64,000 bases of DNA from contig NZ_JAGQED010000018.1 in the NCBI RefSeq assembly GCF_018304965.1, positions 1 to 64,000 on the forward strand, in the 5' to 3' direction. Positions within the stretch are counted from its first letter, which is position 1; each line of letters begins with the position of its first letter. The translations under genes were made by a program, and so were the position numbers. Shown here in pieces: positions 8,978 to 43,646 of this stretch. The notes beneath the pieces are model-generated. The model was not told the origin of the DNA and searched no databases. It was given only the letters and a program-made list of their open reading frames with translations. Source of the DNA: Collimonas antrihumi. Lineage in GTDB: Bacteria; Pseudomonadota; Gammaproteobacteria; Burkholderiales; Burkholderiaceae_D.

Positions 8978-9025
8978 GGTCAGAGTCAACTTTCGCAGGT
9001 TTTATCGCGAAACTTGACTGTGACC
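8978..9025. repeat. REP-type palindrome GGTCAGAGTCAACTTTCGC interrupted by the MITE
   Basis: GGTCAGAGTCAACTTTCGC (8978-8996) pairs with GCGAAACTTGACTGTGACC (9007-9025) with two mismatches. This resembles GGGTCAGAGT-type REP sequences that RAYT transposases spread. A further copy of its first ten bases lies on the far side of the MITE, so the MITE landed in this palindrome. Confidence 0.65.
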
Positions 9026-9083
9026 GCGGTTAGTTCGTGCTGCTTGTCGCGTAGACCTTAAAAACTCCGGTCTTGCAATTTGC

Positions 9084-15949: not shown

Positions 15950-16126
15950 TAATACCGTTAAGTCAAGGTTACCGCTTATAGCGCTTGGCACGTCATTCCC
16001 GCGAACGCGGGAATCCATTTTAACCACCATACTGTGCAACATGGATCCCCGCGTTCGCGGGGATGACGGAGTGACAGCATTGGTCCATCTAAAGAATACC
16101 GTTCGGGGCTTAACTTAACGGCATTA
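15950..16126. mobile_element. MITE copy 2 (177 bp) between kdpC and the porin gene
   Basis: Near-identical to the element at 8800-8977. The right end CTTAACTTAACGGCATTA (16109-16126) is exact, and the left end TAATACCGTTAAGTCAAG (15950-15967) differs at two positions. It fills the gap between the kdpC stop and the porin leader, leaving 10 bases to kdpC. Flanks GGGAGGACT and GGGACGGAACT resemble each other but are not a clean target duplication. Its internal palindromes would fold in any kdpC-porin read-through RNA. Confidence 0.85.
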
Positions 16127-16136
16127 GGGACGGAAC

Positions 16137-26717: not shown

Positions 26718-27545
26718 ATGTTAACCAAATTAGCAAAATACCGATTTCCGGCTTTAATTGCAGCCGCCTTCTTTGTTTGTAATGCTGGCGCACAAACGTC
26801 CGTGACTGAGGTACGTGCGCCAGCGGAATCAAGCATTCCAGCCGGCCCCAGGGGAGCCGCGATTCAGGAAGGCCGGAAACTGATGAACGAGACCCATCAG
26901 CGCCTGCCCAAAAATGTCGGGAACGGCCTCAATTGCACCAATTGTCATCTGGCTGGCGGCGCCACGGCGAACGCATCGCCGTGGGTCGGTATCTGGGGAG
27001 TTTTTCCGGAATACCGCGCGCGTAGCGGCAAGCTGATCTCCTTGCAGGAAAGGATCAACGATTGCTTCGAGCGTTCGATGAATGGCAAGCCGCTGCCATA
27101 TACGTCGACGGAAATGACGAATATCCTGGCTTACATGCAGTGGTTGTCGACCGGCGTGCCGACTGGCGTAAGCGTGGCGGGAAGAGGTTTCGGAGCGATC
27201 GACCAGAAACTCAAGGCGGATCCGAACCACGGCAAGCAGGTGTATGCAGACAAATGCGCGAGCTGCCATGGTGCAGACGGAGCAGGCATGAAAAACGGCG
27301 AACACGGCTATACCTTCCCGCCGCTATGGGGAGCAGACTCCTTCAACGACGGCGCCGGCATGGCCCGCACCTACACGGCGGCGGCGTTCGTCAAACACAA
27401 TATGCCGCTGGGCCAGGGTGGCACCTTGACGGACCAGGAGGCGGTGGATGTATCGGAATTCTTCACCCATCAGCCGCGACCGGTCTATCCCGGAAAATCA
27501 CATGACTGGCCGCTGGGTGATAAGCCGAAAGATGCGCGCAGCTGA
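26718..27545 (+). CDS. TsdA-like dihaem cytochrome c
   Basis: 275 residues. A Sec signal peptide (LIAAAFFVCNAGAQT, cut near AGA-QT) places it in the periplasm. Two haem c sites are present: C73-x2-C76-H77 (LNCTNCHL) and C180-x2-C183-H184 (KCASCHGADG). Between them, WVGIWGVFPEYRARSG and RINDCFERSMNGKPLP are typical of the thiosulfate dehydrogenase/TsdA and SoxA-like dihaem group. It may oxidise thiosulfate to tetrathionate, or act as an electron carrier. No partner cytochrome (TsdB) or sox genes are adjacent. The stop lies four bases from an SDR gene remnant on the opposite strand. Confidence 0.8.
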   Translation: MLTKLAKYRFPALIAAAFFVCNAGAQTSVTEVRAPAESSIPAGPRGAAIQEGRKLMNETHQRLPKNVGNGLNCTNCHLAGGATANASPWVGIWGVFPEYRARSGKLISLQERINDCFERSMNGKPLPYTSTEMTNILAYMQWLSTGVPTGVSVAGRGFGAIDQKLKADPNHGKQVYADKCASCHGADGAGMKNGEHGYTFPPLWGADSFNDGAGMARTYTAAAFVKHNMPLGQGGTLTDQEAVDVSEFFTHQPRPVYPGKSHDWPLGDKPKDARS

Positions 27546-27549
27546 GCGC

Positions 27550-27606
27550 TCAAGCCCAACCTGCATCTACGATGAATTCCTGCGCGGTGCACATCGCGCT
27601 ATCATC
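27550..27606 (-). pseudogene. Remnant: last 19 codons of an SDR dehydrogenase gene
   Basis: Read on the minus strand, the segment encodes DDSAMCTAQEFIVDAGWA and a stop. This is the exact C-terminus of the intact SDR at 40163-40954. The DNA is 51/57 identical to 40163-40219 and all six differences are synonymous, so the copy descends from a gene that was under protein-level selection. Homology stops abruptly at 27606. With the intact gene it brackets the type VI block as a direct repeat. Confidence 0.85.
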
Positions 27607-27808
27607 TCCGTTCGACAAATCACGGATTTACCAAGCCGACGTGTCGGCTATCTTCAATGACTTAACAACAATGGTCGCCAAGAAATCCATGTTCTAAATT
27701 TTATTAAAAAAATAACTATACTTACCAAAAAAACCATACATGCGGCAGGGGAAGTTGACGTATTATTAATTTTAATAATTTGTCATCCTACCTGGAGTTG
27801 CCGCCACT
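27607..27808 (+). promoter_or_regulatory. AT-rich leader of the type VI block
   Basis: About 200 bases, strongly AT-rich from 27690. It contains the inverted repeat ATTATTAA-TT-TTAATAAT (27762-27779) and a possible -35 TTGACG at 27755-27760. This is a plausible promoter for vgrG and a likely target of H-NS-type silencing. No gene is seen in it. Confidence 0.35.
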
Positions 27809-30370
27809 ATGTTTACTTCCCCACGAACACTGAGTGTAAAAAGCGCAGCCATCCCAAAAATAATGGGACAACCGGCGTTAGTCGCTGTGAGCATCAAGGG
27901 CACTGAGGCGCTCAATAATCTCTTCATTTATAAGATTCTGCTTAAAACCCCAGATGATATGCTCAATTTCGGCCCGGCAGCCGATCATGATCTCGCCGCA
28001 TTTGAACGGCAAGAACTGACGGTAGAAATACAGTTGGATGGCGCGGGCAGCTTTATCCCGGGCATGCCCGGTAGCAGCGGTTCGGCGAACGTAGGCGCCG
28101 GCATCCGCGAAATTTCCGGGATCATTACGCGTGCCACAATGCTGCGGCAAGTCGGGCGCCATGCGTTTTATGAACTTACGCTGGAACCTTGGCTGAGACT
28201 AGCTGATGACAACGCCGATTGCCGGATTTTCCAAGACAAATCCGTTGTCGACATTCTGGATGAAGTGTTATCCAAATACACCTTCTCGGTCGACAAGCGT
28301 CTTTTTGACGACTACCCCAAGAGAGATTACGTTACCCAATATTCGGAATCGGATTTCACTTTCTTCAGCAGATTATGCCAGGACGCCGGCATAAATTATT
28401 GCTTCGAACATACAGACGGTAAGCATCGCCTAGTGCTATCAGACAGCAATTCATCGCATCGACCGTTTCACAGCGAGGCCTATCACGCACTTAACTACTT
28501 TGACGAAAAGCCGCGCATCGACCAGGAATACATCCATACATTCTCACCGTCGCAACGCTTGACACCCGGCCGCTACACTACACGCGATTACGATTACACC
28601 CGGCCGAGAAGCACACTTGAAGTAACCGACAATGACCCGCGCGCGTCCGACCATAATGCCGAGGTCTACGAATACCATACCGATGCACATTATGTGCAAC
28701 CGAAAGCCGGCCCTCAGCAGGCAACAAATGATCCTTTGGACGAGGGCAGGAAAAATGCCCGCATACGGATGGAACGTTTACGCAACGACGTTCAGCGCGC
28801 CAGCGGTTCTGGCCACTTGCGTGCCGTGGTGCCTGGTTGCACCTTCAAGCTGGGCCGTCATCCGTCGACTCAAGCCAACATTGAATATTTAATCGTCGCC
28901 ACGCACTTCGAAATGGAGGAAGTCGGACAAGCGACCCAACCTCAGGATAGCGGTTCACAACAGTTCCGTGTCAATGTCGATTTTGAAGTGGTGCCGTTGC
29001 GTGGCGGACAATATCGCCCCGAACGGGTCACACCAAGACCGGCCATGCACATCCTCACCGCCATCGTCGTCGGGCCGGAGAATGAACCGCTCTGGACCGA
29101 CAATCTAGGCCGGATCAAGGTGCAATTCCAATGGGATCGTCTGGGGCAAAGCGATCAAAACAGCAGTTGCTGGGTGCGGGTTTCCAGTCCATGGGCGGGC
29201 AATCAACTGGGCGCCATCCACATTCCCCGCATCAACCAGGAAGTCTTGATCGATTTCATCAGCGGGAATCCGGATTTGCCGATCTGCACCGGGCGCGTAC
29301 ACAATACGCTCAATACGCCGCCCTGGTCGTTGCCCGGCCAAAGCGCACTATCCGGCTGGCGCTCACGCGAGCTCAGCAAAGACGGCGGCAACAGCGCCGG
29401 CGGCCGAAGCAATCATCTGATCCTGGACGACACTGAAGACAAGATACAAACACAACTCAAGAGCGATCATCAGCACAGCCAGCTCAGTCTCGGCAATATC
29501 ACCCGCATTGAAGACAACGCTGGTCGCAAAGATCCGCGGGGTGAAGGTTTTGAGTTGCGCACCGACGGCCATGGCGCGATACGCGCCAAGGATGGTTTGA
29601 TCATCACTACCGAAGCGCGGAACAAGGCGCAAAGCCATATCAAGGACATTGATGAACCGGTGCAGCGGCTGACGCAAGCACGTGAACAACAGGAAAGCCA
29701 GGCTGATCTCGCTCAGCAACATCAAGCGCAAGAAAACGGCGTCGATCAGAGTGATGTCTGCAAGGCTATCAAGGCGCAGAACGATGCGATCAAAGGTAGC
29801 GGCGGTGATGCGAAAGCTGGGAATTTCCCGGAACTGACAGAACCACATCTGGTTCTTGCCAGTCCTGCCGGAATTGAAACCACGACGCCGAAATCGACCC
29901 ATATCGCCAGCGGCGAGCATATTGCGTTGACCAGCGGCTGGCATCTATCGATGGCTGTGGGTAAATCGCTGTATGCCAGCATTGCCGATAAGTTGTCGGT
30001 ATTTGTCCATAAACTTGGTATCAAACTGATTGCCGCCAGTGGCAAAGTGCAGATACAGGCGCAGAACGACGACATGGAACTGATCGCCAAGAAGGTCATG
30101 GACATTATCAGCGCCACCGACTGGATCAATCTGAAAGCCAGGAAAGGGATTCGCCTGCAAGGCGGTCACAGCGAGTTTGTCATCGGTGGCGACGATGACG
30201 GGATCATCGGCCGCACGCCTGGCGTGTTCCACGTGTGGTCGGCAGATACGCAGACGTTTGGACCGAAGAGCGTTCCTCTTGCCTTACCTACATTTCCACA
30301 GTCCGTATGCAAAGAGTGCATGAGCGCAGCCATGGCAGCGCGTTCGGTCGCTGGCTCCCCTACTCTTTGA
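27809..30370 (+). CDS. vgrG: Type VI secretion spike protein VgrG (TssI) with DUF2345 domain
   Basis: 853 residues. The N-terminal gp27-like domain (~1-380) includes SVVDILDEVLSKYTF and QYSESDFTFFSRLCQDAGINY. The gp5/OB-fold region (~420-500) includes DNLGRIKVQFQWDRLG, WVRVSSPWAGNQLGAIHIPR and GNPDLPICTGRVHN. A long C-terminal DUF2345 extension (~680-850) follows. VgrG trimers form the tip of the contractile tube and carry effectors. No enzymatic C-terminal domain is evident, so cargo is probably loaded through the adjacent DUF4123 adaptor. First gene of an eight-gene block; 24 bases separate it from the adaptor gene. Confidence 0.95.
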   Translation: MFTSPRTLSVKSAAIPKIMGQPALVAVSIKGTEALNNLFIYKILLKTPDDMLNFGPAADHDLAAFERQELTVEIQLDGAGSFIPGMPGSSGSANVGAGIREISGIITRATMLRQVGRHAFYELTLEPWLRLADDNADCRIFQDKSVVDILDEVLSKYTFSVDKRLFDDYPKRDYVTQYSESDFTFFSRLCQDAGINYCFEHTDGKHRLVLSDSNSSHRPFHSEAYHALNYFDEKPRIDQEYIHTFSPSQRLTPGRYTTRDYDYTRPRSTLEVTDNDPRASDHNAEVYEYHTDAHYVQPKAGPQQATNDPLDEGRKNARIRMERLRNDVQRASGSGHLRAVVPGCTFKLGRHPSTQANIEYLIVATHFEMEEVGQATQPQDSGSQQFRVNVDFEVVPLRGGQYRPERVTPRPAMHILTAIVVGPENEPLWTDNLGRIKVQFQWDRLGQSDQNSSCWVRVSSPWAGNQLGAIHIPRINQEVLIDFISGNPDLPICTGRVHNTLNTPPWSLPGQSALSGWRSRELSKDGGNSAGGRSNHLILDDTEDKIQTQLKSDHQHSQLSLGNITRIEDNAGRKDPRGEGFELRTDGHGAIRAKDGLIITTEARNKAQSHIKDIDEPVQRLTQAREQQESQADLAQQHQAQENGVDQSDVCKAIKAQNDAIKGSGGDAKAGNFPELTEPHLVLASPAGIETTTPKSTHIASGEHIALTSGWHLSMAVGKSLYASIADKLSVFVHKLGIKLIAASGKVQIQAQNDDMELIAKKVMDIISATDWINLKARKGIRLQGGHSEFVIGGDDDGIIGRTPGVFHVWSADTQTFGPKSVPLALPTFPQSVCKECMSAAMAARSVAGSPTL

Positions 30371-30394
30371 CGACTTACCTGAAAGAATAACCCT

Positions 30395-31282
30395 ATGTAT
30401 TTCGGCGTAGATCCACACCACCCTGAATTAAACAGCCTGATCCAGACAACTATCAGCGCGACCATTGAAAGGCACGGCAAGCTCCGCGTGTATGCGCTGG
30501 TCGACGGCGTCTTTGACGATAATCTAGGCCGCCAACTTTGGGCGCTCAGCAATCAAACCGATACCGGTGTCGTCTCGCTGTATGACAACACGGTGTTAAG
30601 CGGGTATGAAGAATGCGCACCGTTTCTGATGAATCTGTCGCCGGAGAATCTACCAAAGTTACTCAAGTTCAGTGTCGACAAACCGATGCTGAGCGTTCTG
30701 CAAAGCCCGTTGTCCCTCGGGGCGATGCAACAGCACTTTGCAGGTTTTTTACAGATACGCACAACTTCCGATGGCGTGCGCATGCCGCTGCGGTTTGCCG
30801 ATGTCATGTGCAGTCAGAATGCGCTAAAGATGTTCAATGATGCACAACACAGTGCGTTCTGTTCCGGCTTCACGGCATGGCATTTGATTAATCGCAAAGG
30901 CACGCTTACCAGCGTCGACGGCACTTGTCTGGACGCTGCTACCTATATCCGGCCCGCTGTCGGCGAAGGTAATGCCATCGATATCACCGACAGACAGTAC
31001 GTTGACCTAATCAATGGTGGCGAGGCGGATTTCATCCTCTGCGATCTCGCCAAGAAAGCGTTCCCCGTGGTCGCGGAACGCACTCCTTCAGTCCTGTACA
31101 GCATGATCAGTGCGCTATTGAAACAGTTGACCGTGTACCGCATTAACAATGATGCGGAGAGATATGCGTTGGTTACACAAGCCATCATGCTTCCCGAACG
31201 GGAACAGGCATTGACCTTGTTGGAGGACGCGAAAAAATATGGCGTGGAGATCGCGTTGCAACGTGCTGCTTCAGCACAGTGA
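30395..31282 (+). CDS. DUF4123 effector-loading adaptor (Tap/TEC)
   Basis: 295 residues, soluble. The N-terminal ~130 residues match DUF4123 (LRVYALVDGVFDD, a central block ending MPLRFADV). DUF4123 proteins (Tap-1/TEC) bind VgrG and a cognate effector and load the effector on the spike without being secreted. Position between vgrG and the lipase gene fits this. The C-terminal half carries DITDRQYVDLINGGEADFI and a helical tail, probably the effector-specific part. Confidence 0.88.
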   Translation: MYFGVDPHHPELNSLIQTTISATIERHGKLRVYALVDGVFDDNLGRQLWALSNQTDTGVVSLYDNTVLSGYEECAPFLMNLSPENLPKLLKFSVDKPMLSVLQSPLSLGAMQQHFAGFLQIRTTSDGVRMPLRFADVMCSQNALKMFNDAQHSAFCSGFTAWHLINRKGTLTSVDGTCLDAATYIRPAVGEGNAIDITDRQYVDLINGGEADFILCDLAKKAFPVVAERTPSVLYSMISALLKQLTVYRINNDAERYALVTQAIMLPEREQALTLLEDAKKYGVEIALQRAASAQ

Positions 31283-31311
31283 TCGAAAAAATATTGAAAC
31301 GAAGGAAATTC

Positions 31312-31800
31312 ATGCACATCAGATATTCACACTTACTCGCCGCGACGCTGGCACTCAGCGGCTGTACGACTACAACACAGAACACGGGGCCGGAAGCGAT
31401 CTCCAAGCCATCCATGGTTGTCAATATTCCGATGACCCCCGTGTCTATCGGATGTTTGAGCCATGACGGCGCTCCTCCCATTACTTCATTTTACGTTCAA
31501 GAACCATTTAGCAAGCAAATGCTAGGGGGACTCAGTTGCGGCGGAAGTGGTGCTTTTGGCTACATGCTCCCCTTGACATGGCAACCCGGCATGAAAGTTA
31601 AGGTGCGCTGGAAACCGAATGCACGCGATTGGATAGAAAAAAACACCACGATTCGGCGCTATAACGAAGCCGGAGATATTTTTGTTCATTTTTTTGCAAA
31701 CGATGAGGTACGTATAGTCTCAGCTGCCCGTTATGGTGCCCAAAATCCAAACCATCCAATTCTTAAGAGTCTGACAATCGCCCCACCGGAGGAAGAGTAA
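31312..31800 (+). CDS. DUF3304 lipoprotein, probable immunity protein (Tli-like)
   Basis: 162 residues from the ATG at 31312, behind GAAGGAA; an upstream in-frame start at 31279 overlaps the adaptor gene and is unlikely. The N-terminus MHIRYSHLLAATLALSGC has a lipobox (LSGC), so it should be a lipoprotein. The remainder fits DUF3304 (HDGAPPITSFYV, LSCGGSGAFGYMLPLTWQPG). DUF3304 lipoproteins accompany Tle phospholipase effectors and are taken as immunity proteins held in the periplasm. The next gene starts directly after its stop, supporting an effector/immunity pair. Confidence 0.8.
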   Translation: MHIRYSHLLAATLALSGCTTTTQNTGPEAISKPSMVVNIPMTPVSIGCLSHDGAPPITSFYVQEPFSKQMLGGLSCGGSGAFGYMLPLTWQPGMKVKVRWKPNARDWIEKNTTIRRYNEAGDIFVHFFANDEVRIVSAARYGAQNPNHPILKSLTIAPPEEE

Positions 31801-33867
31801 ATGAGCGAACCGATTCTCTCCGCGCCACCGCGCATTTCAAGTTCCGCAACAGAAGAAATGACGCCAAAAACTGTCAACGTGGCTAGTCGCATTCTTAAAG
31901 ACCAACAGCCCACCGTCAACGCTCCCCCTTGCCAAAAATTGATCAATATTGGTTTGTTTTTCGATGGCACCAATAACAACATGATTCGCGACATGCCGCA
32001 ACAATGTCATACCAACGTCGTCAAAATGTTTAATGCACATAAAGATGTCAATGAAAAAGGAGCGCTACAAGAACCAGGGCACTACAAGTTTTATGTCCCC
32101 GGTCTCGGTACACGTTTTCCTGAAAACCTCGAGTGGCGCGAAACCACAGATGGGAAAGCCTTTGGTAAAGGTGGCCAGGCTAGAATTTTATTTGCGCTAC
32201 TTGAAGTCTATAACGCGATTTACCGGGCATTTAGCGAAGATGCCTTTATGTTCAGCCGACAGGAAATTACCGCCAAAATCCAGCAATACGCTAAAGACAT
32301 CGAAACCAACGACCCCTTGGGTGATCCAAAAACTCCGCGTCCAACTCGCCGAAGTTGGTTTGACGAACTCAGCAAAATACTCGACGAAAAATTAAGCAAG
32401 GCACGTCAAGACAGGCAGCAACCAGTTATTCCAAAAATTACACTGAACGTATTCGGCTTTTCTCGCGGCGCAGTCGAAGCCCGGGCTTTTTGTTACTGGT
32501 TTTCTGATGTTCTGAAAGACGGAAAACTTGCCAGCATGCGTGCCGAAATTAATTTCTTAGGCTTGTTCGACAGTGTGGCGTCAATTGGCCCAGCGAATTC
32601 CGCATCAGAAACGACACCGCTTTTCTTTGCTGACGGTCACTTTAGCTGGGCCAAGGAAATCCGAAAACCTTTACCTGGCTGTGTCAAAAAAACTGTGCAC
32701 TACGTCGCGGCCCACGAACAACGTCGCAACTTTCCGCTCACCCGCGTCAAAGGTAATGATGTCACCGAATATATGTATCCAGGCGTGCACAGCGATGTCG
32801 GCGGCGGTTACAGTCCGGGTGATCAGGGCCGGGGGATGACAATGGGCACAATGCTCTCGCAGATACCGCTGCTACATATGCATCGAGCAGCGACTACGGC
32901 TGGAGTACCCTTGCTGTCCCATGCACAAATGCCGTCGGATTTAACTGCCGATTACGATCTTAGTTCCGATCTGAGCGAAGCCTGGAATTTCTACATGAAA
33001 GCTCTCGATTTCAAACCCGAAGCAGATTTCAAGATCGAACCGAACGGAACTGTAATGGGAAGTTATCACGCCATGGTACGAGAGCATATGCGCCTGTTTT
33101 ATAGTTTCCGACGCAGATATCTGAACGAGTACCAGAACATTCCTTCGTTTTCCAAAGCCAGCAAGCAGGACCAGGAAGACCTGAATAGTTACAACGAATT
33201 GTTAAAAGGCGACCTGGCGGTCTTGCGCGGGCGAGAAAAAAATGCAACGCGGTACGTTAGTGGCATTTCTGATCGTCACATCACTCACGCCTCGAAAGAA
33301 GCCCAGTTCGCGAATGCCTGGCAACGGCTGCTCGCGGGTACCAGCGTCCCGCCGGGCAAGAACGAGATATGGGCATTGAAACAATTCGATCAAGCGACGG
33401 ACTCGACCGAGCCGCACTATATGTCGCTATTGATCAATCAAGTGCACGACTCGCTGGCATCGTTTTATCTGGCCGGTTACTCGTCTGATGAAGACAAGGC
33501 AGAAAAGCTACTAACGCTGGCACGGAAATACAGTAAGCCGGGGCAAGCGCCTTCCGGGTCTTACGACAGGCAAGTGTGGGATGCGTATCAACAAGACCCG
33601 GTGGCCATGGATATCGTAAAACAACGGATTGATGCGTACAACGACGTCGACAAAACTGGCGGCCTCCGCCTGGAAAAATTCCAGGCGCTGAATTCCGCCA
33701 ATCAGCAGACACCTTTCACCCAAGAGGAACAAGCCGTGCTGGCTAAATGTTTTCCGCTACAAACCGACGCTGATACCGGGCAATTGCTCAATCCTTTCAT
33801 GAGAACCCAAACCGGAACCCGACGCGAAGGCAGCGGATTTTTGCGGCAACGTGTTGTATTTGAATAA
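31801..33867 (+). CDS. Tle1-like type VI phospholipase effector (DUF2235)
   Basis: 688 residues with the alpha/beta-hydrolase DUF2235 fold. The nucleophile motif is GFSRG with Ser221 (VFGFSRGAVEARAF). The probable acid is Asp257 in LGLFDSVASIG, and the probable histidine is His330 in GVHSDVGGGY. The N-terminal phrase INIGLFFDGTNNN is diagnostic of the family. The C-terminal ~250 residues are helical and of unknown role, probably membrane or adaptor binding. Tle1 enzymes hydrolyse phospholipids (PLA2/PLA1 activity) in the target's envelope. The gene sits between the adaptor and its lipoprotein immunity partner, upstream of tssL. Confidence 0.92.
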   Translation: MSEPILSAPPRISSSATEEMTPKTVNVASRILKDQQPTVNAPPCQKLINIGLFFDGTNNNMIRDMPQQCHTNVVKMFNAHKDVNEKGALQEPGHYKFYVPGLGTRFPENLEWRETTDGKAFGKGGQARILFALLEVYNAIYRAFSEDAFMFSRQEITAKIQQYAKDIETNDPLGDPKTPRPTRRSWFDELSKILDEKLSKARQDRQQPVIPKITLNVFGFSRGAVEARAFCYWFSDVLKDGKLASMRAEINFLGLFDSVASIGPANSASETTPLFFADGHFSWAKEIRKPLPGCVKKTVHYVAAHEQRRNFPLTRVKGNDVTEYMYPGVHSDVGGGYSPGDQGRGMTMGTMLSQIPLLHMHRAATTAGVPLLSHAQMPSDLTADYDLSSDLSEAWNFYMKALDFKPEADFKIEPNGTVMGSYHAMVREHMRLFYSFRRRYLNEYQNIPSFSKASKQDQEDLNSYNELLKGDLAVLRGREKNATRYVSGISDRHITHASKEAQFANAWQRLLAGTSVPPGKNEIWALKQFDQATDSTEPHYMSLLINQVHDSLASFYLAGYSSDEDKAEKLLTLARKYSKPGQAPSGSYDRQVWDAYQQDPVAMDIVKQRIDAYNDVDKTGGLRLEKFQALNSANQQTPFTQEEQAVLAKCFPLQTDADTGQLLNPFMRTQTGTRREGSGFLRQRVVFE

Positions 33868-33929
33868 TAGAACACGCCTGAGCCTTGGCTCAGGCAATTC
33901 GCAGTGACAACCTTGAGCAGAAACCTTTG

Positions 33930-34904
33930 ATGACAGACACTACATCGGACTCCACATTGTATGCGGGCATTAATCATGACGACGCCAGCTATGACGAATT
34001 TGCATGGGAAACCAGTATTGCATCTCGGGCGTCGGCGCATGCTTCGGTCGAAGCCCCCTCACAAGCAATCAGGGATGCCGGCGTAACTGAAGCAAAGATC
34101 AACGCCATCGCCAGCGAGGCTATGGAAACGACCGAGCAGCTACATTATAGGCAGGAGAAGATCATTGCCGCCCGCAATCCCTTATATCAAGCGGCCAAGC
34201 CATTATTGCGCACACTGGCGGATTTACCGGACACACATTTTGACAGCCGCATCCGAATCGAAACCTTCCGTCGTATCATCCAGTGCGAGGTAAGCAATTT
34301 TGAGATGCTATGCACCCGGGCGAACATCGATCCCAAACATGTAAAGACGGCGAGTTATTGCCTATGTACCGCCATCGATGAGGCTGCCAACAGCACGCCT
34401 TGGGGTGGCGGTACAAACGGTGAACTCGGCCCGTGGGCGTCAGGCATGCTGGCGCAATCCCAGCACAGCGATAGCGAAGGCGGTCGGAAATTCTTCTTGC
34501 TGATCGGAAGGCTGTCAACGGCACAGCCGGAACAGCATTGCGATTTGCTGGAAGTGATGTATCACATCCTTTGCCTGGGTTTCCAGGGTCAATATCGCAG
34601 CGATCCAGATGGCCCGCGCCATCTCGTCGCAATACGCAAGCATCTGGATACGCTGATTACAGCTGGCCGCGAGCCAATTCCATCGGCGTTGTCACCTCAC
34701 TTGCAGGGCGTGGCACCGGACCGTTTTCAGGCCTTCCGCAGCATTCCAGTGCGGGTCTCGGCCACCGTGATGACGCTGGTGGTACTGGTGACATGCGGGT
34801 ATTACAAATACCAGTTAGTGGAAATGACCAACAAGGTGGTCGACAACATCGTTGCCATCAGCGCGATGTCAGCACCACCGGCAACACCTTCCCCAACCAG
34901 GTAA
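33930..34904 (+). CDS. tssL: TssL (IcmH/DotU) type VI membrane complex subunit
   Basis: 324 residues from the ATG at 33930; an earlier in-frame start at 33885 adds a non-conserved stretch. The DotU domain is clear: NPLYQAAKPLLRTLADLP, RRIIQCEVSNFEMLCTRANI and AIDEAANSTPWGG. One C-terminal membrane helix (~273-297) anchors it. There is no OmpA-like peptidoglycan-binding domain. TssL joins TssM and TssJ to hold the type VI baseplate to the envelope. It lies apart from any tssK or tssJ gene. Confidence 0.92.
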   Translation: MTDTTSDSTLYAGINHDDASYDEFAWETSIASRASAHASVEAPSQAIRDAGVTEAKINAIASEAMETTEQLHYRQEKIIAARNPLYQAAKPLLRTLADLPDTHFDSRIRIETFRRIIQCEVSNFEMLCTRANIDPKHVKTASYCLCTAIDEAANSTPWGGGTNGELGPWASGMLAQSQHSDSEGGRKFFLLIGRLSTAQPEQHCDLLEVMYHILCLGFQGQYRSDPDGPRHLVAIRKHLDTLITAGREPIPSALSPHLQGVAPDRFQAFRSIPVRVSATVMTLVVLVTCGYYKYQLVEMTNKVVDNIVAISAMSAPPATPSPTR

Positions 34905-34986
34905 TAAAAAAAACGACCACAAAACCGCAGACGGAAAATGCCTGAATTAAAAACCGAGAACACGAATTTTCTGGGACGACTGAAAA

Positions 34987-36123
34987 ATGACTAACGTAAA
35001 TACACCGATGAAAAAAGCCAAAAAAATCTTATTCGCAACAATCACCGTACTTGGCATAACTCAATTAGCCATGAGTCGCGACCTACCTGCTACTGACGAT
35101 TCGGAATTGCAGCACCTAACTACTCCAATTGCCGCTGCTGGCTTTACAGAAGCGCGAGCAATTAGCGCGAATGGCAAGGTTGTAGTTGGCAGTGCTGATT
35201 TTAAGGGAGCGGAATGTCGTTGTGATTCTGATGCTTTCGCATGGTCGAGCACAACTGGCATGATCGATATCAATCAAGGTGCAGTTCCTTGGTCATGGGC
35301 AACTGCCGTAAATGCCGATGGATCCGTTATTGTTGGATTATTGCAATACGCGGTGGAAGAACGTTCGCGCCCGTTTAGATGGACCGCCGAAACCGGTCTC
35401 GTTGATTTGACAAAAGCCAATCCGCAATTAGAAAACTTTTATCCTGTAGCGCTCAGTGCCGACGGAACGATCATGGCGGGTAGAGTGCGCCTATTAAATC
35501 AAGGTGCTCGCACACGAGCCGCCATCGTGTCGAATGGAGTGCTCACCTATCTGGGATCACCGCAAAATACAAGGGAAGATTCCGATGTTACCGCAATGAC
35601 ACCGAATGGTGACATTGTGGTCGGCCATATAAATGCGGATGGTACGAGTAATCGAGCTTTTCTATGGAAAAAAAATGAAGGAATGAAAGACATCACCACA
35701 ATCAAAGGCCATTTTTTATCAAGTTACGCAACTAACGTAAGCGCAGACGGTTCTACCGTCGTCGGATCGGTGTTTGCCGATGGAGTTAATCACGCATTCC
35801 AGTGGACAGAAAAGAATGGCATGAAAGACTTAGGAGCACTTACTAATGATGAAGACGAAAAATTGGAAGCCATAGCTGTCAGTGGAAACGGCGCACTTGT
35901 CTTTGGAATATCTTCGAGACGTAGTGTCAGCGAAAGACGTTTATTTCAATGGAGTGTAAACAAAGGCATGGTGGACTTAGGGCCGGCACCCGGCAACATT
36001 GACACGTCATATATCGCAGGAACGTCATCTGACGGCAGTATTTTGACTGGAACGATTTCTCGCGGCGGGTTAAAAAATGCTTTTGTGCTTGATTTGAGCA
36101 AAATTGGCAAGTCGCAGGAATAA
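34987..36123 (+). CDS. HAF-repeat secreted protein
   Basis: 378 residues. A basic N-terminus (MKKAKKILFATITVLGI from residue 8) suggests Sec export. Five or six copies of a ~45-residue repeat follow, each with an HAF/RAF-type phrase: SDAFAWSS, SRPFRWTAETG, NRAFLWKKNEG, NHAFQWTEKNG and LFQWSVNKG. Each is followed by a VSADGSTVVG-type segment, as in HAF/beta-propeller-like repeat proteins. Function is unknown. It lies between tssL and PAAR, more AT-rich than its neighbours, so it may be a late addition to the block. Starts at 34987 or 35008 are possible, with weak ribosome binding sites in both cases. Confidence 0.65.
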   Translation: MTNVNTPMKKAKKILFATITVLGITQLAMSRDLPATDDSELQHLTTPIAAAGFTEARAISANGKVVVGSADFKGAECRCDSDAFAWSSTTGMIDINQGAVPWSWATAVNADGSVIVGLLQYAVEERSRPFRWTAETGLVDLTKANPQLENFYPVALSADGTIMAGRVRLLNQGARTRAAIVSNGVLTYLGSPQNTREDSDVTAMTPNGDIVVGHINADGTSNRAFLWKKNEGMKDITTIKGHFLSSYATNVSADGSTVVGSVFADGVNHAFQWTEKNGMKDLGALTNDEDEKLEAIAVSGNGALVFGISSRRSVSERRLFQWSVNKGMVDLGPAPGNIDTSYIAGTSSDGSILTGTISRGGLKNAFVLDLSKIGKSQE

Positions 36124-36161
36124 CAATATCTATCAAGACCAAGCAATCAAGGGAAACGACC

Positions 36162-36416
36162 ATGAAAAACGCAGAAGGCAAGTCAGTAATCCGGCTGGGC
36201 GATAAAACCGATCACGGCGGCGAAGTGATCAGCGCGTCCACGATGAAGGCCATGGGTATCGCCGTGGCGCAAGAGAGTGACATGACACGCTGTCCCAAAT
36301 GTAAGGGAAATTTTCCGATTCTGCCCAAGGGTAACGGCCGCAGACATATGGGGAAACTGGTGGCGCATGATGGCGACGAAACGGGCTGTGGCGCAAAACT
36401 GATCGCCTCTTTTTAA
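36162..36416 (+). CDS. PAAR-domain spike tip protein
   Basis: 84 residues, a complete small PAAR protein (VIRLGDKTDHGGEVISAS, ending HDGDETGCGAKLIASF). PAAR caps the VgrG tip and can carry effectors. An insert with two Cys-x2-Cys-type cysteines (RCPKCKGNF) and a final GCGA could help bind the zinc ion of the cone. No toxin extension is fused. The gene is just upstream of tssM. Confidence 0.9.
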   Translation: MKNAEGKSVIRLGDKTDHGGEVISASTMKAMGIAVAQESDMTRCPKCKGNFPILPKGNGRRHMGKLVAHDGDETGCGAKLIASF

Positions 36417-36473
36417 TAGTGGTAAATATTGTTGCTGCATAAGCGCAATGAACTGGAATAGTTAAAAGCACGC

Positions 36474-39400
36474 ATGACGAATCAATCCCGAGACATTGCC
36501 TCACCCGTACCGCCGCCATCCGACACAGCAACCCCGATACCGGACAAATCATCTGACGACGCCATCCTTAAACAAAAAAAGACTCCCAAAAAGAAAGCCA
36601 ACTCCGATACGCTCGATCCCGCTCTCAAGAGTGCTCTCGACAAATTGGATGGGGCATTCCAGCGCTCTTTGATGCGGCTTAGAAGCATGCGTGGCGCCCG
36701 TGGTTTGCGACGTCTGTGGGAAGGAAATCGCCACGTGTACGCGGGACCTTGGTACCTGGTGATAGGTAAACACGGCGTTGGAAAAACGAGTGCTCTGCTC
36801 AATTCCAGTCTGACATTTCCGCCGTCTGGCCGCATATCGATCGCTTCCGATTCATCGAGCGCGCAAAACCATGCCGGTCATGCCGATTGGTGGTTGTCCG
36901 ATTCTATTGTGCTGATCAACGCCCCCGAACGATACGTCGTACAGCAAGTTGCTGCTGCGAGGGACAATGCAGAATGGCTTGGCTTTCTGGGCCTGCTGCG
37001 CAAATACCGCAGGCGCACGCCGATCAACGGTGCATTGGTGATGCTCGATGTCGGTGAGTTACTAACTCAGAGCGAGTCTGACCGCCTGGCCTACGCGGAT
37101 CAGCTGCGCGCACGGCTGCATGAACTGCGCATCGAATTGGGTATCCGCTTTCCAGTCTATGTGATCGTCACCAAGATGGATCTGCTGAAAGGCTTTACCG
37201 ATTACTTTCATTCGCTCACGGCCGAAAACCGGGCGCAGGCATGGGGCTTCACTTTGCCTTACGTTAAGACCGGGGGCAAATACACCGCCAGGACTTCGCC
37301 GCTGGAAAACGAGCTGCAAAGTGAGTTGCAAACCCTGAGCCGGCGTCTTGACGACGGTTTGCAACGGCAACAGCGGGATGAACTGGATCATGCCCGGCGC
37401 CGGGCCTTATCAGCGTTGCCGCAGGAATTCGACAGCTTGACGTCCCTACTGACATCCATCCTTGGCGCGATATTTTGTGATAGCAGCTTTGACAATACGC
37501 AAACGCGTCACTCGCTACGTGGAATCTACTTCACCAGCGCTGCACAAGGAGAACACCGCATTCCAGCGGATCAGCTGACGCCGTTGCAACGTCAACTCAC
37601 AGCTGAAAACGACGAAAAAGATAAGACAAACTCCGCAACACACGACGCGCACCGGGCTAATCCAGAAGCGAGTCCGACAAGCGGCAATCGCGGCTATTTT
37701 CTGAGCGACATGTTCAACAAGGTCATTATTCCGGAAGCGCATTTGGCACGCCCCAACTTGCGCAGAGTATTTCGCTTACGTCTGTTGCGTTGGATCGGCC
37801 ATGCCAGCGCCGTAGTCATCGGATTTTGGTTGGTGACAGGACTGATCCTATCGTTCGGCAATAACTCTGCATATTTGCACGCAATCGCCGATAAGACCAC
37901 CGATCTCATGCAACGCATGAACAAGCTGTTTGCTTTGCCAGATACCGAACGAATGTCAGTGGTGCCAGACGCATTGACGGCGGCACAGGAGTTGCCGCTA
38001 TATCGTGGGTTGGATATCAAAGCGCCGTCAACCGGATTTGCTTACGGCTTGTACAGCGCGCCGCCTGTCGCCGCAGCAGCGCACGACAATTACGCAGCGT
38101 TGGGAGATCGCCTGCTGTTGCCGCAGATAATCAAACGCATGGAAGCGACCTTGGCGACAGCTGTCATCAACAAGGATGCCGAAACCGCGTATGACACCTT
38201 ACGCGTGTATTTACAGTTGCACGACAAAGCCTACTTCAGCGCAGCCGATGTACAAGGATGGGTGGAAAAAGATTGGTCCTCGCCAGATAGCGTGGCTACG
38301 TTTGGCGGCCGAGCGTCCATGGCCGGCCATGTCAAACAATTATTTTCAGGGGAGCGCGTAGTGCAAGCAACTACGCCGCAAAATGCCGCCCTGGTCCAGC
38401 AAGCACGTGAGCTTTTGAATGGCAGCCCATCGACGCTACGTTTGTACGAACGTGCCAAAGCCGCCATGATGCAGGAAGCGCCGCGGGATTTTACATTGAC
38501 GCGCGCGGTTGGGCCTGGGGCAAGCACAGTGTTCTTACGCATTTCAGGTGCGCCTTTAGATAAGGGGATTCCGGGCCTGTTTACCTATGACGGCTACCAC
38601 CGGCTGTTCGATGTACGCTTATCCGAATTTGTGGCTAAAGCACAGGCCGACGATGCATGGGTAATGGGCCATCGCCATGCTGAACAAAAGCCGGCCGATG
38701 TCGCCAGATCCATGCGTGAAGATGATCCAGTGACACAAGCTATCCGACGTCAATACCTGGAAGACTATACCCGACACTGGACTACATATCTGGATGATAT
38801 CGACGCTGTCAGCGGGAAGGATCTGAAAGCAGATATGGACGTCTTGCACACTTTGTCTGCGCAGGATTCTCCATTGGCGCGTTTAGCAAGAGCGGCAGCG
38901 CAGGAAACCACCCTGTCGCGGCCATTAGATATGCAGAGCGACAACAGAAACCTGCTTGATAAAGCCACTGAAGCTCTCAAGAAAAAAAGCCGGGGCGCAT
39001 TGGGTATCAGCCCACAGGAACGACAAGAGAAAGAACTGGTCGATAACCATTTCACAATCCTGCGCGAAGTCGTCACAGGACAGCCTGAGATCGGGCAAGC
39101 AAAAACCGTGACCCTGCCCGCTCTGGCCAATGTCATGGCATTGCTGAACGAATATTACACGGTGCTGACGGTCGCCGACACCGCACTGGCGACCAACAGC
39201 GCTCCTCCCGCCAGAATCGACACTGCGATCAAGTTGGAACAGGCTAGCGTGCAATTGCCGGCGCCTTTCAAGCGCGTTCTGACAACATTGGAAGATAGCG
39301 GCAGCAAAAAGATATCGGATGGTACCTCCAGCATCTTCCGGGTTCAGGCACAACGCCAGGTCGACCGGATCAATGCGTTGATGACGAGCCAGGTCAGCGA

Positions 39401-40145
39401 CCTATGCAAGCGCAGCATCGAAGGACATTATCCCTTTGCAGCGAGCGTCAATGAAGTATCGATTGAGAATTTTAGCCGCATGTTCGCCGCTGGCGGGGCA
39501 GCCGACGAATTTTTTCAGAACCAGCTAGCGTCGTTTGTCGATACCAGCAGCCGGCCATGGAAGTACAAAATTCCGGTACCGGCGAATCTTGGCGGGGCAA
39601 TAGCCGTGGGAATGCAAGACGCAAACTTGACTGGCTCGGCGGCTCACAACGAATTACTCAAAGTACTAGCGCAGCAAGGCCCGAATCCCGATGCGTTTGC
39701 ACGGATTCGTACCATCAGAGAGGCATTTTTCCGTGAGCCAGGCAGCAAACAGGTGGCGTGGAAAGTTGATGTCAAAGCTATGGACGTAGCTCCCACCATC
39801 ACCACCTTGCTGATCAATCTCGACGGTCAGGTGCAGCGTTATTCACATGGCCCGGTACAGGCGCTGACCGTCAACTGGCCCGGTCCGCGTGGTGGAGTAA
39901 TGGCGGAACTTACCGCGTCCCCACGCATTAGCGCGGAAACATCGACCATCGCCACGCAAGGGCCGTGGGCTTTATTGCGCTTGCTTGAACGCGGCACGCA
40001 GATCGGTTCGTCTGCAGATGGCCGGACGACGATGGAATTTCAGTTCGATACGCGCAAAGTGGTACTGGAAATGAATGCCGGTGCCACGTCGAATCCTTTC
40101 ACACCCGATGTTTTGAAAGGATTCTCTTGCCCGGGAAGTCCTTAA
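36474..40145 (+). CDS. tssM: TssM (IcmF/VasK) type VI inner membrane subunit, no N-terminal helices
   Basis: 1223 residues. P-loop GKHGVGKT at 98-105 (WYLVIGKHGVGKTSAL), NTPase domain to ~330, then one membrane helix near 445-461 (SAVVIGFWLVTGLILSF) and a long periplasmic part to the C-terminus (EFQFDTRKVVLEMNAG). Usual TssM proteins have two further helices near the N-terminus. Here residues 1-92 are polar, Pro/Lys-rich and contain none. TssM spans the envelope and connects TssL to TssJ and the outer membrane. It would still be inner-membrane anchored with the N-terminus inside. The gene ends 17 bases from the convergent SDR gene. Confidence 0.93.
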   Translation: MTNQSRDIASPVPPPSDTATPIPDKSSDDAILKQKKTPKKKANSDTLDPALKSALDKLDGAFQRSLMRLRSMRGARGLRRLWEGNRHVYAGPWYLVIGKHGVGKTSALLNSSLTFPPSGRISIASDSSSAQNHAGHADWWLSDSIVLINAPERYVVQQVAAARDNAEWLGFLGLLRKYRRRTPINGALVMLDVGELLTQSESDRLAYADQLRARLHELRIELGIRFPVYVIVTKMDLLKGFTDYFHSLTAENRAQAWGFTLPYVKTGGKYTARTSPLENELQSELQTLSRRLDDGLQRQQRDELDHARRRALSALPQEFDSLTSLLTSILGAIFCDSSFDNTQTRHSLRGIYFTSAAQGEHRIPADQLTPLQRQLTAENDEKDKTNSATHDAHRANPEASPTSGNRGYFLSDMFNKVIIPEAHLARPNLRRVFRLRLLRWIGHASAVVIGFWLVTGLILSFGNNSAYLHAIADKTTDLMQRMNKLFALPDTERMSVVPDALTAAQELPLYRGLDIKAPSTGFAYGLYSAPPVAAAAHDNYAALGDRLLLPQIIKRMEATLATAVINKDAETAYDTLRVYLQLHDKAYFSAADVQGWVEKDWSSPDSVATFGGRASMAGHVKQLFSGERVVQATTPQNAALVQQARELLNGSPSTLRLYERAKAAMMQEAPRDFTLTRAVGPGASTVFLRISGAPLDKGIPGLFTYDGYHRLFDVRLSEFVAKAQADDAWVMGHRHAEQKPADVARSMREDDPVTQAIRRQYLEDYTRHWTTYLDDIDAVSGKDLKADMDVLHTLSAQDSPLARLARAAAQETTLSRPLDMQSDNRNLLDKATEALKKKSRGALGISPQERQEKELVDNHFTILREVVTGQPEIGQAKTVTLPALANVMALLNEYYTVLTVADTALATNSAPPARIDTAIKLEQASVQLPAPFKRVLTTLEDSGSKKISDGTSSIFRVQAQRQVDRINALMTSQVSDLCKRSIEGHYPFAASVNEVSIENFSRMFAAGGAADEFFQNQLASFVDTSSRPWKYKIPVPANLGGAIAVGMQDANLTGSAAHNELLKVLAQQGPNPDAFARIRTIREAFFREPGSKQVAWKVDVKAMDVAPTITTLLINLDGQVQRYSHGPVQALTVNWPGPRGGVMAELTASPRISAETSTIATQGPWALLRLLERGTQIGSSADGRTTMEFQFDTRKVVLEMNAGATSNPFTPDVLKGFSCPGSP

Positions 40146-40162
40146 TGAGGTTCAAGCGACAC

Positions 40163-40954
40163 TCAAGCCCAACCCGCATCGACAATGAATTCCTGGGCAG
40201 TGCACATCGCACTATCATCCGCCGCCAGGAACAAGACCATGCGCGCCAGATGCCACGGTTGCAACTTACCGGGTAGGCACTGGTTGCGCTTGATGTCTTC
40301 CTCTCCCGCCGCATCCAGCCACAACGCGACCTGCCTTTCAGTCATCACCCATCCCGGCGACACGGTATTGACGCGGATATTGTACGGCCCGAGGTCGCGC
40401 GCCAAGCCGCGTGTCAGGCCGACCACAGCCGCCTTGGCCGTGGTGTACACCGGATAACCGCCGTTCGACAGATGCCAGCTGATCGAGCTGAGATTGATGA
40501 TCGATCCGCCGCCCTTTTTTTGCATGCCCGGTGCGATCGCCTGGCAGGTAAAGAACATCGGGCGCTGATTGATGGCGATCCGGTCATCCCAATAATCGAC
40601 GGTTACTTTCGCCAGTTGATGGCGCTGGTCGTTGGCGGCATTGTTGACCAGCACATCGAATGTGCCTATCTCTTGCGCCAATCCCTGTATGGTCGTCTGC
40701 AATGCCGCAATATCGCGGATGTCGCAATGACGAAATAGCGGCTTGACCAGACCTGCTGCTGCCAGGCTTTCACACAAAGCCTCGCTGGCCTCCTTCTCGA
40801 TATCGACGAAACCTACGCGCGCGCCCTGTTCCGCAAATGCGCTGACAATCGCCGCGCCGATACCGCTGCCGCCGCCGGTGATGAATACGTTCTTGTCTTT
40901 CAGGCTGGGGAAACGCGCCAGCTGTGCTTGTGCCATGTCGTTTACTGCCGGCAT
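40163..40954 (-). CDS. SDR sugar dehydrogenase (probable pentose/galactose 1-dehydrogenase)
   Basis: 263 residues of the classical short-chain dehydrogenase family. NAD(P)-binding TGGGSGIG near 27-34, NNAA, and active-site Ser/Tyr/Lys (NLSSISWHL; YPVYTTAK). It probably oxidises L-arabinose or a similar aldose to the lactone, as the first step of the non-phosphorylative route encoded by the operon. The substrate is inferred from neighbours. Its last 19 codons recur at 27550-27606. It is the last gene of the chvE operon and is convergent with tssM. Confidence 0.85.
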   Translation of the reverse strand: MPAVNDMAQAQLARFPSLKDKNVFITGGGSGIGAAIVSAFAEQGARVGFVDIEKEASEALCESLAAAGLVKPLFRHCDIRDIAALQTTIQGLAQEIGTFDVLVNNAANDQRHQLAKVTVDYWDDRIAINQRPMFFTCQAIAPGMQKKGGGSIINLSSISWHLSNGGYPVYTTAKAAVVGLTRGLARDLGPYNIRVNTVSPGWVMTERQVALWLDAAGEEDIKRNQCLPGKLQPWHLARMVLFLAADDSAMCTAQEFIVDAGWA

Positions 40955-41011
40955 ATCAACTCCTGTTCAATGTGGTGCCTGGAAAATCCGCTTACCTTAC
41001 CTTACTTCAGT

Positions 41012-42592
41012 TTACTTGCCGCTCAACTGGCCATTGATACGCTGCCCGATCGCCAGCGGATTACTATCCTGAATCGCTGCCGGCAACAGGTCCTGCGGTA
41101 TGTTTTGATATGAAACCGGCCTTAAAAAGCGCTGGATCGCAGCCGTGCCCACTGACGTCGTGCGGCTGTCCGAGGTGGCCGGGAACGGCCCGCCGTGAAC
41201 CATGGAATAGGACACTTCGACTCCGGTCGGAAAGCCATTCGCCAGAATCCGGCCGGCCTTGCGCTCCAGGATCGGCAGCAGTCCGCGCACTGCCTGGTGA
41301 TCGCCGTCGGTCATCTGCAAAGTTGCGGTCAGTTGCCCTTCCAGGTTCTCCGCCACCGCAAGCATCTCGGCCATATCGCGGCATGCGACCAGCAGCGACG
41401 CCGGTCCGAATATTTCTTCCGACAACTGCGGATCGGTCAGGAAATCCTGGGCGCTGGTGCTGAACAATGCCGGTACGCCGCTGCCTGCCGCGTCGCTGGC
41501 GACGCCTTGGCTGAGCTGACGTACGCGAGAGTTGGCGGCAAGACGGCCAACACCTTTTTGATATGCGTGATGAATGCCAGCCGTCAGCATGGCCGCGGCA
41601 TTGCGCTGCGCCAGTTGCGTCGCGGCAGCCGTACTGAAGCGTTCCAGATCCGGTCCTTGCAATGCCAGCACCAGGCCAGGATTGGTACAGAACTGGCCGA
41701 CGCCCAGCACCAGCGAATCGACAAAAGCAGCGGCCAGCGGTTCGGCCTTGTCGGCCAGCGCCTGCGGTAACAGGAATACCGGATTGATACTACTCATTTC
41801 GGCATACACTGGAATCGGCTGAGGACGCGCGGCAGCAGCCGACATCAACACCAGGCCACCTTGACGCGAGCCGGTGAAGCCGACCGCCTGTATCGCCGGA
41901 TGCTGCACCAGTTCGATGCCGAGATCGTTGCCGATACCGGTCAATAGCGAAAATACGCCTTCCGGAAAGCCCGCTGCCGATACCGCTTTCTGCAGTGCCC
42001 GCCCGACCAGCTCTGAGGTGCCGGGATGGGCAGGATGGGCTTTCACCACCACCGGGCAACCCGCCGCCAATGCAGCTGCGGTATCACCGCCGGCGACTGA
42101 AAACGCCAAAGGAAAATTACTGGCGCCGAACACCGCAACCGGCCCCAATGCAATCATGCGCAGACGTAAATCGACCCGCGGAAAAGGTTGGCGATCCGGT
42201 AGCGCCGGATCGATCCGCGCATCCTGCCATGAACCTTCACGCAGTACTTCGGCAAACAATCTGAGCTGGCCCACGGTGCGGCCGCGTTCGCCTTCCAGCC
42301 TGGCGCGCGGCAAGCCGCTTTCACTCATCGCACGCTCTATCAGCTGATCGCCGAGAGCCAGGATATTTTCAGCGATGCTTTCCAGTAAGCGGGCGCGCGT
42401 CTCCGGATCGGTATTCCGGTAAGGATCAAAAGCGATCCGCGCCAATTCGCAGGCGCAGTCGACCTCGGCTTTGCCGGCGGTATGGAATGCTGGTTGAAGT
42501 TCGCTGGCGGTGGCGGGATTGAATGCAAAAAAGGCAGTTCCTCCGCCTTTGATATGAGAAGCGCCGATCAGCGATTCGCCTGTGATGTCCAT
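41012..42592 (-). CDS. 2-oxoglutarate semialdehyde (2,5-dioxovalerate) dehydrogenase
   Basis: 526 residues from the ATG at 42592; the open frame extends upstream but that part is not family-like. Aldehyde dehydrogenase fold with the catalytic Cys in [14 protein letters not shown] near residue 301 and the general-base Glu region in [16 protein letters not shown]. This is the 2,5-dioxovalerate dehydrogenase group that converts 2-oxoglutarate semialdehyde to 2-oxoglutarate using NAD(P)+. This is the last step of oxidative pentose or hexarate breakdown, linking it to the TCA cycle. It lies between araD1 and the SDR in the operon. Confidence 0.88.
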
Positions 42593-42635
42593 GCTTTTCC
42601 TAACAATAAAATGGCTGTGGTTCAGAGATTCCGAA

Positions 42636-43631
42636 TCACAGCGGGCGAATCCGCGGTGTCGCCAAAGTCTCGACTGCGAGCCGGTTACGCAACGGCGGCC
42701 CGAAGGCAGCCACGTCAATCTCGAATGTTTCTCCGGGTGCGACCTGGATGCCATCCGAGCAACTCAAGGTCGCCGTGCCGAAGAAATGGATATGGACATC
42801 GCCGGGGCGGCGGAACAGCGGGTATTTGAAGTGGTGATACTCCAGGTTGGCAACAGTATGCGACATATTCTCTTCGCCGCTGACAAACGGCTTTTCCCAA
42901 CGCACCTGGCCATTGACACTGCGAATACGCGACATGCCTTCCACATGCGATGGCAAATCACCTATCAGCAAGGCGGGACCGACAGCGCAAACCCGCAGTT
43001 TGGAATGCGCCAGATACAGATAGTTCTGACGTTCGGTGACATGATCGGAAAACTCGTTGCCAATCGCAAAGCCGAGCCGGCATGGCGTGCCATCCGCAGC
43101 AATCACATACAGCGCTGCAATCTCTGGTTCTTCCCCGCCGTCCAGCGCAAATTGCGGCATCGTCAACGGTTGCTCGCCAGCGCAGACAATGCTGCCGTCG
43201 CCTTTGTAAAACCATTCCGGTTGCACCCCGGTCTGGCCGGGCTGCGGCTTGCCGCCTTCCAGGCCCATGCGGAACATTTTCATGCTGTCGGTCAGGGTAT
43301 CGACATCGTTGATTTTCTTGTGCATGGCGTCGCGGCCGTCAGCGCTGCCCAGATGGGTAAGGCCGGTGCCGGTGACGTAACAATGGGCGCTGTCGCTGTG
43401 ATCCAGCGGTGGCAGCAAGCGACCGGCCTTCGCAACTTCAGCGTAATCCAGAACAACAGCTCCCAACCCGGCGCTGGCCACGCTTTGCAACGAACTATTG
43501 CTTTCGATCGCTGCTTGCGCCAACTCGTAGGTTGAGGCATAACCATCCACTACATGGATTTTCCGGCCTTCATCTTCCAGTACCCCGATCCGACGCTGTC
43601 CGTCGGCCAGTTTGAATTGAACCAACAACAT
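42636..43631 (-). CDS. araD1: AraD1/GguC family protein (FAH fold, 2-keto-3-deoxypentonate dehydratase-like)
   Basis: 331 residues of the AraD1/GguC branch of the fumarylacetoacetate hydrolase superfamily: [40 protein letters not shown] (a family signature) and [16 protein letters not shown] near the metal site. It probably dehydrates L-2-keto-3-deoxyarabonate to 2-oxoglutarate semialdehyde. The gene name GguC comes from its usual place beside gguAB. A repeat copy lies in the 93-base gap between it and the upstream dehydratase. Confidence 0.87.
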
Positions 43632-43646
43632 GTATTTCCCCGTTCT

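Follow-up and report, generated by a model that had tools for sequence, protein, structure and literature searches.

In Escherichia coli, prophage e14 inserts at the 3' end of the protein-coding gene icd, supplies that gene with a new end and leaves the displaced end at its far side (PMC6379469). Inserted DNA flanked by a partly duplicated gene end has also been reported for E. coli plasmids, where single crossovers of re-circularised molecules duplicated 109–950 bp of a gene end and did so integrase-free (PMC3240628). Among type VI secretion genes, the auxiliary cluster Aux3 of Vibrio cholerae is described as lying between attachment (att) sites, with naive strains lacking the island (PMC7721734), and the VgrG part, adaptor, effector and immunity genes of Aux1 and Aux2 are described as gained horizontally by natural transformation (PMC5527308). 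In the genus Collimonas, type VI clusters have been reported in C. fungivorans and C. pratensis and not in C. arenae, partly on a genomic island (PMC4690342). Here we describe a block of type VI genes in a stretch of 64,000 nt from Collimonas antrihumi (contig NZ_JAGQED010000018.1, positions 1 to 64,000; hereafter "the window"), taken from a draft genome of 4.72 Mb in 83 contigs. The block is bracketed by two copies of the 3' end of a short-chain dehydrogenase/reductase (SDR) gene. We consider it probable that it is an auxiliary type VI island that entered the window's lineage on one occasion, by a single crossover at the SDR 3' end.

The locus differs from each of these systems. The repeat of e14 is given as 163 bp and the element is a prophage, whereas the Collimonas repeat measures 57 bp and the block carries type VI cargo and a HAF-repeat gene only, without an integrase (PMC6379469). 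Aux3 is reported to encode a P4-like integrase, with its att sites lying in intergenic flanks; the Collimonas block, in contrast, has a gene end as its target, lacks an integrase and includes TssL and TssM (PMC7721734). According to their description, Aux1 and Aux2 replace alleles between conserved flanks, whereas the Collimonas block appears to have been added whole at a previously unoccupied site, where a gene end is now duplicated (PMC5527308). The E. coli plasmid case is a laboratory construct, while the Collimonas repeat is natural, shorter and made of diverged alleles (PMC3240628). C. fungivorans Ter331 belongs to the same genus and has patchy type VI genes partly on an island; the likeness is drawn from its description, in which a gene-end repeat does not figure (PMC4690342). 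The literature listings searched do not name this very insertion.

The Duplicated SDR Gene End

The left (L) and right (R) copies are direct repeats of 58 nt in the same orientation, identical at 52/58 positions (51/57 over the coding part), and were matched with an E-value of 2.3e-15 in a BLAST search of the window's own genome (Table 1). Both translate to DDSAMCTAQEFIVDAGWA-stop, and the stop codon of L lies four bases from the stop codon of the neighbouring cytochrome c gene. The initial annotation had claimed a repeat with six synonymous differences and a displaced end four bases from the cytochrome c gene, and both claims were borne out. The differences fall at codon-sense positions 9, 21, 24, 36, 39 and 45, all of them third codon positions, and amount to a divergence of 10.5% over 57 nt. 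Random changes in this stretch would be synonymous in 21.5% of cases, so that six synonymous changes out of six have P = 9.9e-5 under unconstrained change, and the three differences assigned to L, again all synonymous, P = 0.0099; both values hold for a transition weight of 2 and one rate at all sites. The SDR gene itself is intact: its open reading frame (ORF) of 263 aa aligns with nine relatives to the last residue, and the block thus adjoins a gene 3' end without disrupting the gene, as in att islands.

Since all six differences are synonymous, L and R most likely both look like the ends of working SDR alleles, with differences that would be older than the displacement of L. The same pattern can equally reflect one donor and one resident allele, and because the differences seem to have arisen while both ends coded for protein, the incoming DNA would have brought its own SDR end. 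Synonymous-only differences therefore argue against a transposon-like target duplication with later decay; a transposon is expected to leave a short identical duplication, which a diverged repeat of 57 nt is not. The assembly is a draft, and repeats of this kind might in principle stem from chance similarity or an assembly artefact. Given the E-value, flanks that are collinear with four other genomes, and a longest exact run common to L and R of 13 nt, because of which a misjoin on the repeat is unlikely, we regard this explanation as negligible.

Empty Sites in the Genus

The SDR gene was found in 13/14 other Collimonas genomes, the remaining one (G001, 1.7 Mb) giving no match. In four of them, G002, G007, G009 and G014, the cytochrome c gene and the SDR end lie in one unbroken stretch with a single SDR end and no block. 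These are all the genus genomes in which both flanking genes were matched side by side (4/4), and the other nine SDR-bearing genomes match the SDR end only and have a different downstream neighbour. At the empty sites, window positions 27606 and 40160–40167 meet with an overlap of 53–60 bases, and the distance between the SDR and cytochrome c stop codons is four bases in the window, G002 and G014 and 14 in G007 and G009. A second SDR end was found in 0/13 of the other SDR-bearing genomes, and in none of them a second full copy together with the block, in searches that scored the best candidates per genome (as a rule 8, 7 or 2, depending on the search) and that did recover the second end in the window's genome. 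The initial annotation had proposed that the block was inserted at the SDR 3' end, that strains without it should show one SDR gene whose end adjoins the cytochrome c gene, and that either both SDR ends without the block or a full second SDR gene with it would speak against this. The four block-free genomes show the predicted arrangement, neither of the contrary states was seen, and the empty sites and single SDR ends support the proposed insertion.

As an alternative, the initial annotation had named recombination between two once-functional SDR copies. The synonymous-only differences would also be expected if two full SDR genes had once flanked the block, both ends having lived in functional genes, and one copy had since been deleted to its last 57 bases. 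However, two copies were seen in no relative, and the deletion would have had to spare exactly the terminal piece beside the cytochrome c gene, at the spacing found in G002 and G014; we judge this history quite improbable.

In a tree of the right flank (40220–43640, six genomes), G002 and G014 are paired (support 100/100) and sister to the window, G007 falls outside these three (96/97), and G009 and G011 lie further out. Because this tree nests the window among empty-site strains, a single insertion of the block in the window's lineage is the simplest reading of the sequence comparison. An ancestral block, precisely excised in the four empty strains, would be permitted by the direct repeats; but with empty strains on both sides of the window it would require several losses, and no TssM or TssC at all was found in three of the four (G002, G007 and G014), so that we consider it very improbable. 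Both were present in G009. Such a distribution would fit gain or loss of type VI genes within the genus Collimonas. G010 likewise gave no TssC or TssM match, while in the window's genome TssC was found at two loci, along with two TssM genes. Both flanks of the block are approximately 90–93% identical to the three nearest strains, and the closest DNA to its TssL, PAAR and TssM genes (74–78%) was found in the Collimonas genome G011, on a different contig from the SDR gene of that genome.

Possible Routes of Insertion

If the block entered by a single crossover, the incoming DNA would have carried it together with the last 57 bases of its own SDR gene, diverged from the resident allele by about 10% at synonymous positions. 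One crossover within the 57-base stretch, most simply with a circular molecule, would then rebuild a working SDR gene on the right and displace the former end leftwards together with the adjoining cytochrome c gene. Catalysis might be due to an integrase that has disappeared since or acts in trans; alternatively, a re-circularised fragment might have entered by RecA-type recombination. The E. coli plasmid duplications are a laboratory precedent for such integrase-free entry of a circle (PMC3240628). We thus infer the circular intermediate, the crossover inside the repeat and the catalyst, whereas insertion at the SDR end itself is supported. At the level of the enzyme, integrase and ordinary recombination are both tentative. 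Entry by a RecA-type single crossover is accordingly one guarded option. Somewhat more doubtful is the full scenario of a natural, integrase-free insertion, in which foreign type VI DNA re-circularised with a 57-base SDR end and one RecA-type crossover at a diverged gene end left that end functional. If this were true and general, gene-end islands that lack an integrase would be remnants of crossovers of this kind and not of lost integrases.

A crossover within the repeat predicts a mosaic in which R is resident in its gene-proximal part and L is resident on the cytochrome c side. At positions 9 and 21, R matches 4/4 empty-site strains, and at positions 24, 36 and 45, L matches 3/4 each.

Several observations weigh against a single insertion by crossover. 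The mosaic is weakly visible, leaning the predicted way over six informative positions, and position 39, where R matches 2/4 empty-site strains and L 0/4, is an exception to a split between positions 21 and 24. A T at position 6 occurs in both copies and in none of the 14 relatives compared, which suggests a close donor or later exchange. Over the 57 positions, L is identical to G014, G007 and G002 at 52, 52 and 50, versus 54, 52 and 51 for R. The tree of the left flank (five genomes) does not resolve the branching of the window and G007. No donor with the block beside an SDR gene was found among the genus genomes, and no attP-like sequence in phages, plasmids and viral contigs. In Pfam and NCBIfam searches the eight block genes gave no integrase match, and the window's contig carries none of the genome's 18 matches to PF00589 (Phage_integrase), in agreement with the initial annotation, which saw no integrase; serine recombinases were not searched for.

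A variant of the preferred crossover is a true site-specific island with a tyrosine recombinase, whose attP would have held the SDR 3' end and whose integrase would have been lost or would act in trans. In its anatomy the locus matches e14, which provides icd with a 3' end and leaves the displaced piece behind (PMC6379469); for Vibrio Aux3, integrase-independent circularisation has been reported (PMC7721734). Moreover, VgrG lies between direct repeats in 4/37 other loci examined in the genus (L305, L317, L310 and L298, see below). The block has direct repeats at both ends, as att islands do, but no integrase gene of its own, and because of this lack we do not file it as an att island. Furthermore, the TssM and SDR genes are convergent with 17 bases between their stop codons, which leaves little room for attachment-site arms on that side. 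There is also no sign of a hotspot within the reach of the scans: a displaced end was found in 0/80 named SDR loci (the best 80 of 338), which extend at most 10 kb downstream (71 of them at least 3 kb), too short a distance to reveal an island of this length. Four of the 80 have short matches of 15–27 nt downstream. A whole-genome search of 392 family genomes, with two candidates scored per genome, gave an SDR-end match in 168 and no displaced end beyond the window's genome. Phage and plasmid matches to the core do not exceed 52 nt. Site-specific integration is a tentative possibility.

Several candidates from these searches were discarded. In nine family genomes besides the window's, more than one SDR-end match was recorded; after re-scoring, the extra matches, including a pair 12.4 kb apart in G199 and a third match in G210, proved to belong to additional SDR-type genes, not to displaced ends. 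The core matches in phages (two records, 25 nt) and plasmids (three records, 43–52 nt) do not represent an attP; two of the plasmid matches fall within annotated SDR genes, and the third lies in a record that carries just one annotated feature. A degenerate pattern of the SDR end had 0 matches in viral contigs. Used alone as a query against genome contigs, TssM yielded no confirmed match.

Alternatively, linear donor DNA might have carried the block beside a full SDR gene and been taken up by homology-facilitated illegitimate recombination, with one homologous crossover in the SDR gene and one illegitimate join 57 bases short of its end. The convergent TssM and SDR genes could be native neighbours in such a donor, the block contains no mobility gene, and Vibrio type VI clusters are reported to move by natural transformation and homologous recombination (PMC5527308). 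This route predicts, however, that L is purely resident, whereas L is no closer to the relatives than R; TssM stands beside SDR in no genus genome searched, and events of this kind are, according to the plasmid study, predicted to delete and not to duplicate (PMC3240628). We consider it unlikely.

With filled and empty sites in one genus, the locus, read as an insertion, is a clean case of type VI genes joining a metabolic gene at its end while leaving that gene intact. The lack of an integrase and the diverged yet synonymous ends make it suitable for asking how integrase-less islands enter chromosomes.

Gene Content of the Block

Between the repeats lie eight genes, seven ORFs of at least 173 aa and the 84-aa ORF of a PAAR protein (Table 1). 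The initial annotation had counted eight type VI genes; the number stands, yet one of the eight, the HAF-repeat gene, matches no type VI family, and its product is not known as a type VI component. It is missing between TssL and PAAR in G011 and might be a nested insertion within the block. An imperfect repeat of approximately 27 nt (82%) occurs on both sides of it, at about 34911–34937 and about 36153–36180. The GC content of the block is 0.522, versus 0.569 and 0.568 for the remaining parts of the window. Its first 145 bases (27607–27751) have no match in the 59 other genomes searched, and the rest of the leader after 27751 matches two VgrG leaders of G011.

Table 1. Features of the type VI block and its flanks in the window.
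Feature	Position	Strand	Basis
Cytochrome c gene with SoxA/TsdA-type and cytochrome c domains, adjoining the ancestral site on the left	26718..27545	+	Pfam
Left copy (L), displaced 58-nt SDR gene end	27549..27606	-	
Non-coding left end of block, GC 0.376	27607..27808	.	
VgrG spike protein	27809..30370	+	Pfam; NCBIfam TIGR03361 above cut-off
DUF4123 adaptor, Tla1-like	30395..31282	+	Pfam above cut-off; Tla1 name from NCBIfam score below cut-off
DUF3304 protein, Tli1a-like putative immunity protein	31279..31800	+	Pfam above cut-off; Tli1a from NCBIfam score below cut-off
Tle1-like phospholipase effector	31801..33867	+	PF09994, 92.2 bits, above cut-off
TssL/DotU, no OmpA domain reported	33885..34904	+	Pfam, NCBIfam
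HAF-repeat protein	34987..36123	+	Pfam/NCBIfam scan; matches no type VI family
PAAR tip protein, 84 aa	36162..36416	+	PF05488, Pfam only
TssM/IcmF	36474..40145	+	TIGR03348, 848 bits, above cut-off
Gap between TssM and SDR stop codons, right end of block, 17 bases	40146..40162	.	
Right copy (R), present SDR gene 3' end	40162..40219	-	
SDR oxidoreductase gene, intact	40163..40954	-	best NCBIfam model D-xylose 1-dehydrogenase, 341.7 bits, cut-off 400

In Pfam and NCBIfam scans of all eight genes, VgrG is accompanied by adaptor, effector, immunity and PAAR genes and by no sheath or baseplate gene, as is typical of auxiliary clusters. Part of the core gene set is encoded elsewhere in the genome: TssA-like (ImpA_N), TssE, F, G, L and M on contig C31, and TssC on contigs C7 and C11. 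Because these type VI core genes lie on other contigs, the block is, by its predicted gene content, a type VI auxiliary cluster plus two membrane-complex subunits, an extra TssL–TssM pair. In its cargo the block resembles auxiliary type VI clusters such as Aux3 and Aux1/Aux2. The other TssL of the genome, on C31, carries an OmpA domain, unlike the TssL of the block. The block would give its host an additional VgrG/PAAR spike and a Tle1-like lipase with its putative immunity protein, and we infer that these products and the second TssL–TssM pair would work with the type VI machinery encoded elsewhere. This pair allows a test of whether auxiliary islands can supply parts of the membrane complex.

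Direct Repeats at Other VgrG Loci

Within the genus, 40 loci were retrieved, 37 of which hold a VgrG match (L331–L333 do not), with approximately 10 kb on each side, so that repeats farther away were missed. Some direct repeat is present in 11/40 loci versus 22/62 control loci (the SDR loci of at least 19 kb among the 80 above); because the controls have them too, the mere presence of a direct repeat is uninformative. A 451-bp direct repeat (88%) beside the closest TssM relative (L086, on contig C23 of G011; 4530–4980 and 8861–9311) consists of the 3' end of a response-regulator gene and brackets a CHASE2 kinase gene and a FecR-LysM gene. This repeat lies within a signalling operon and was not adopted as the same event.

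In L305, a stretch with VgrG beside a tRNA-Arg(acg) gene is bracketed by 168-bp direct repeats (94.6%; 1174–1341 and 14667–14832). No integrase was found among the eight inner ORFs scanned, and an AAA ATPase gene is present with a sub-cut-off OLD-like TOPRIM match. The VgrG stretch of L310 lies between repeats of 58–60 bp (4274–4331 and 16090–16149) that resemble the 3' part of a tRNA, although ARAGORN found no full tRNA there; AbiH and HEPN/Toprim genes are located inside the repeats and an integrase gene just outside. In L298, VasX-like, VgrG, Hcp and PAAR genes are bracketed by 56-bp repeats (87.5%; 1260–1315 and 13760–13815) that are not derived from a tRNA. One of the two copies falls within the 3' portion of a 451-aa ORF, for which a search of 15 genomes gave a match in its own genome alone. 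Finally, in L317 of G006 the 3' end of a tRNA-Met gene with a hairpin-like stretch after it (5730–5805) recurs four times downstream (13954, 16329, 17309 and 19825); the repeats are 65–76 bp long, VgrG lies between the first and second copies, an arrangement suggestive of islands arrayed in tandem at a tRNA gene.

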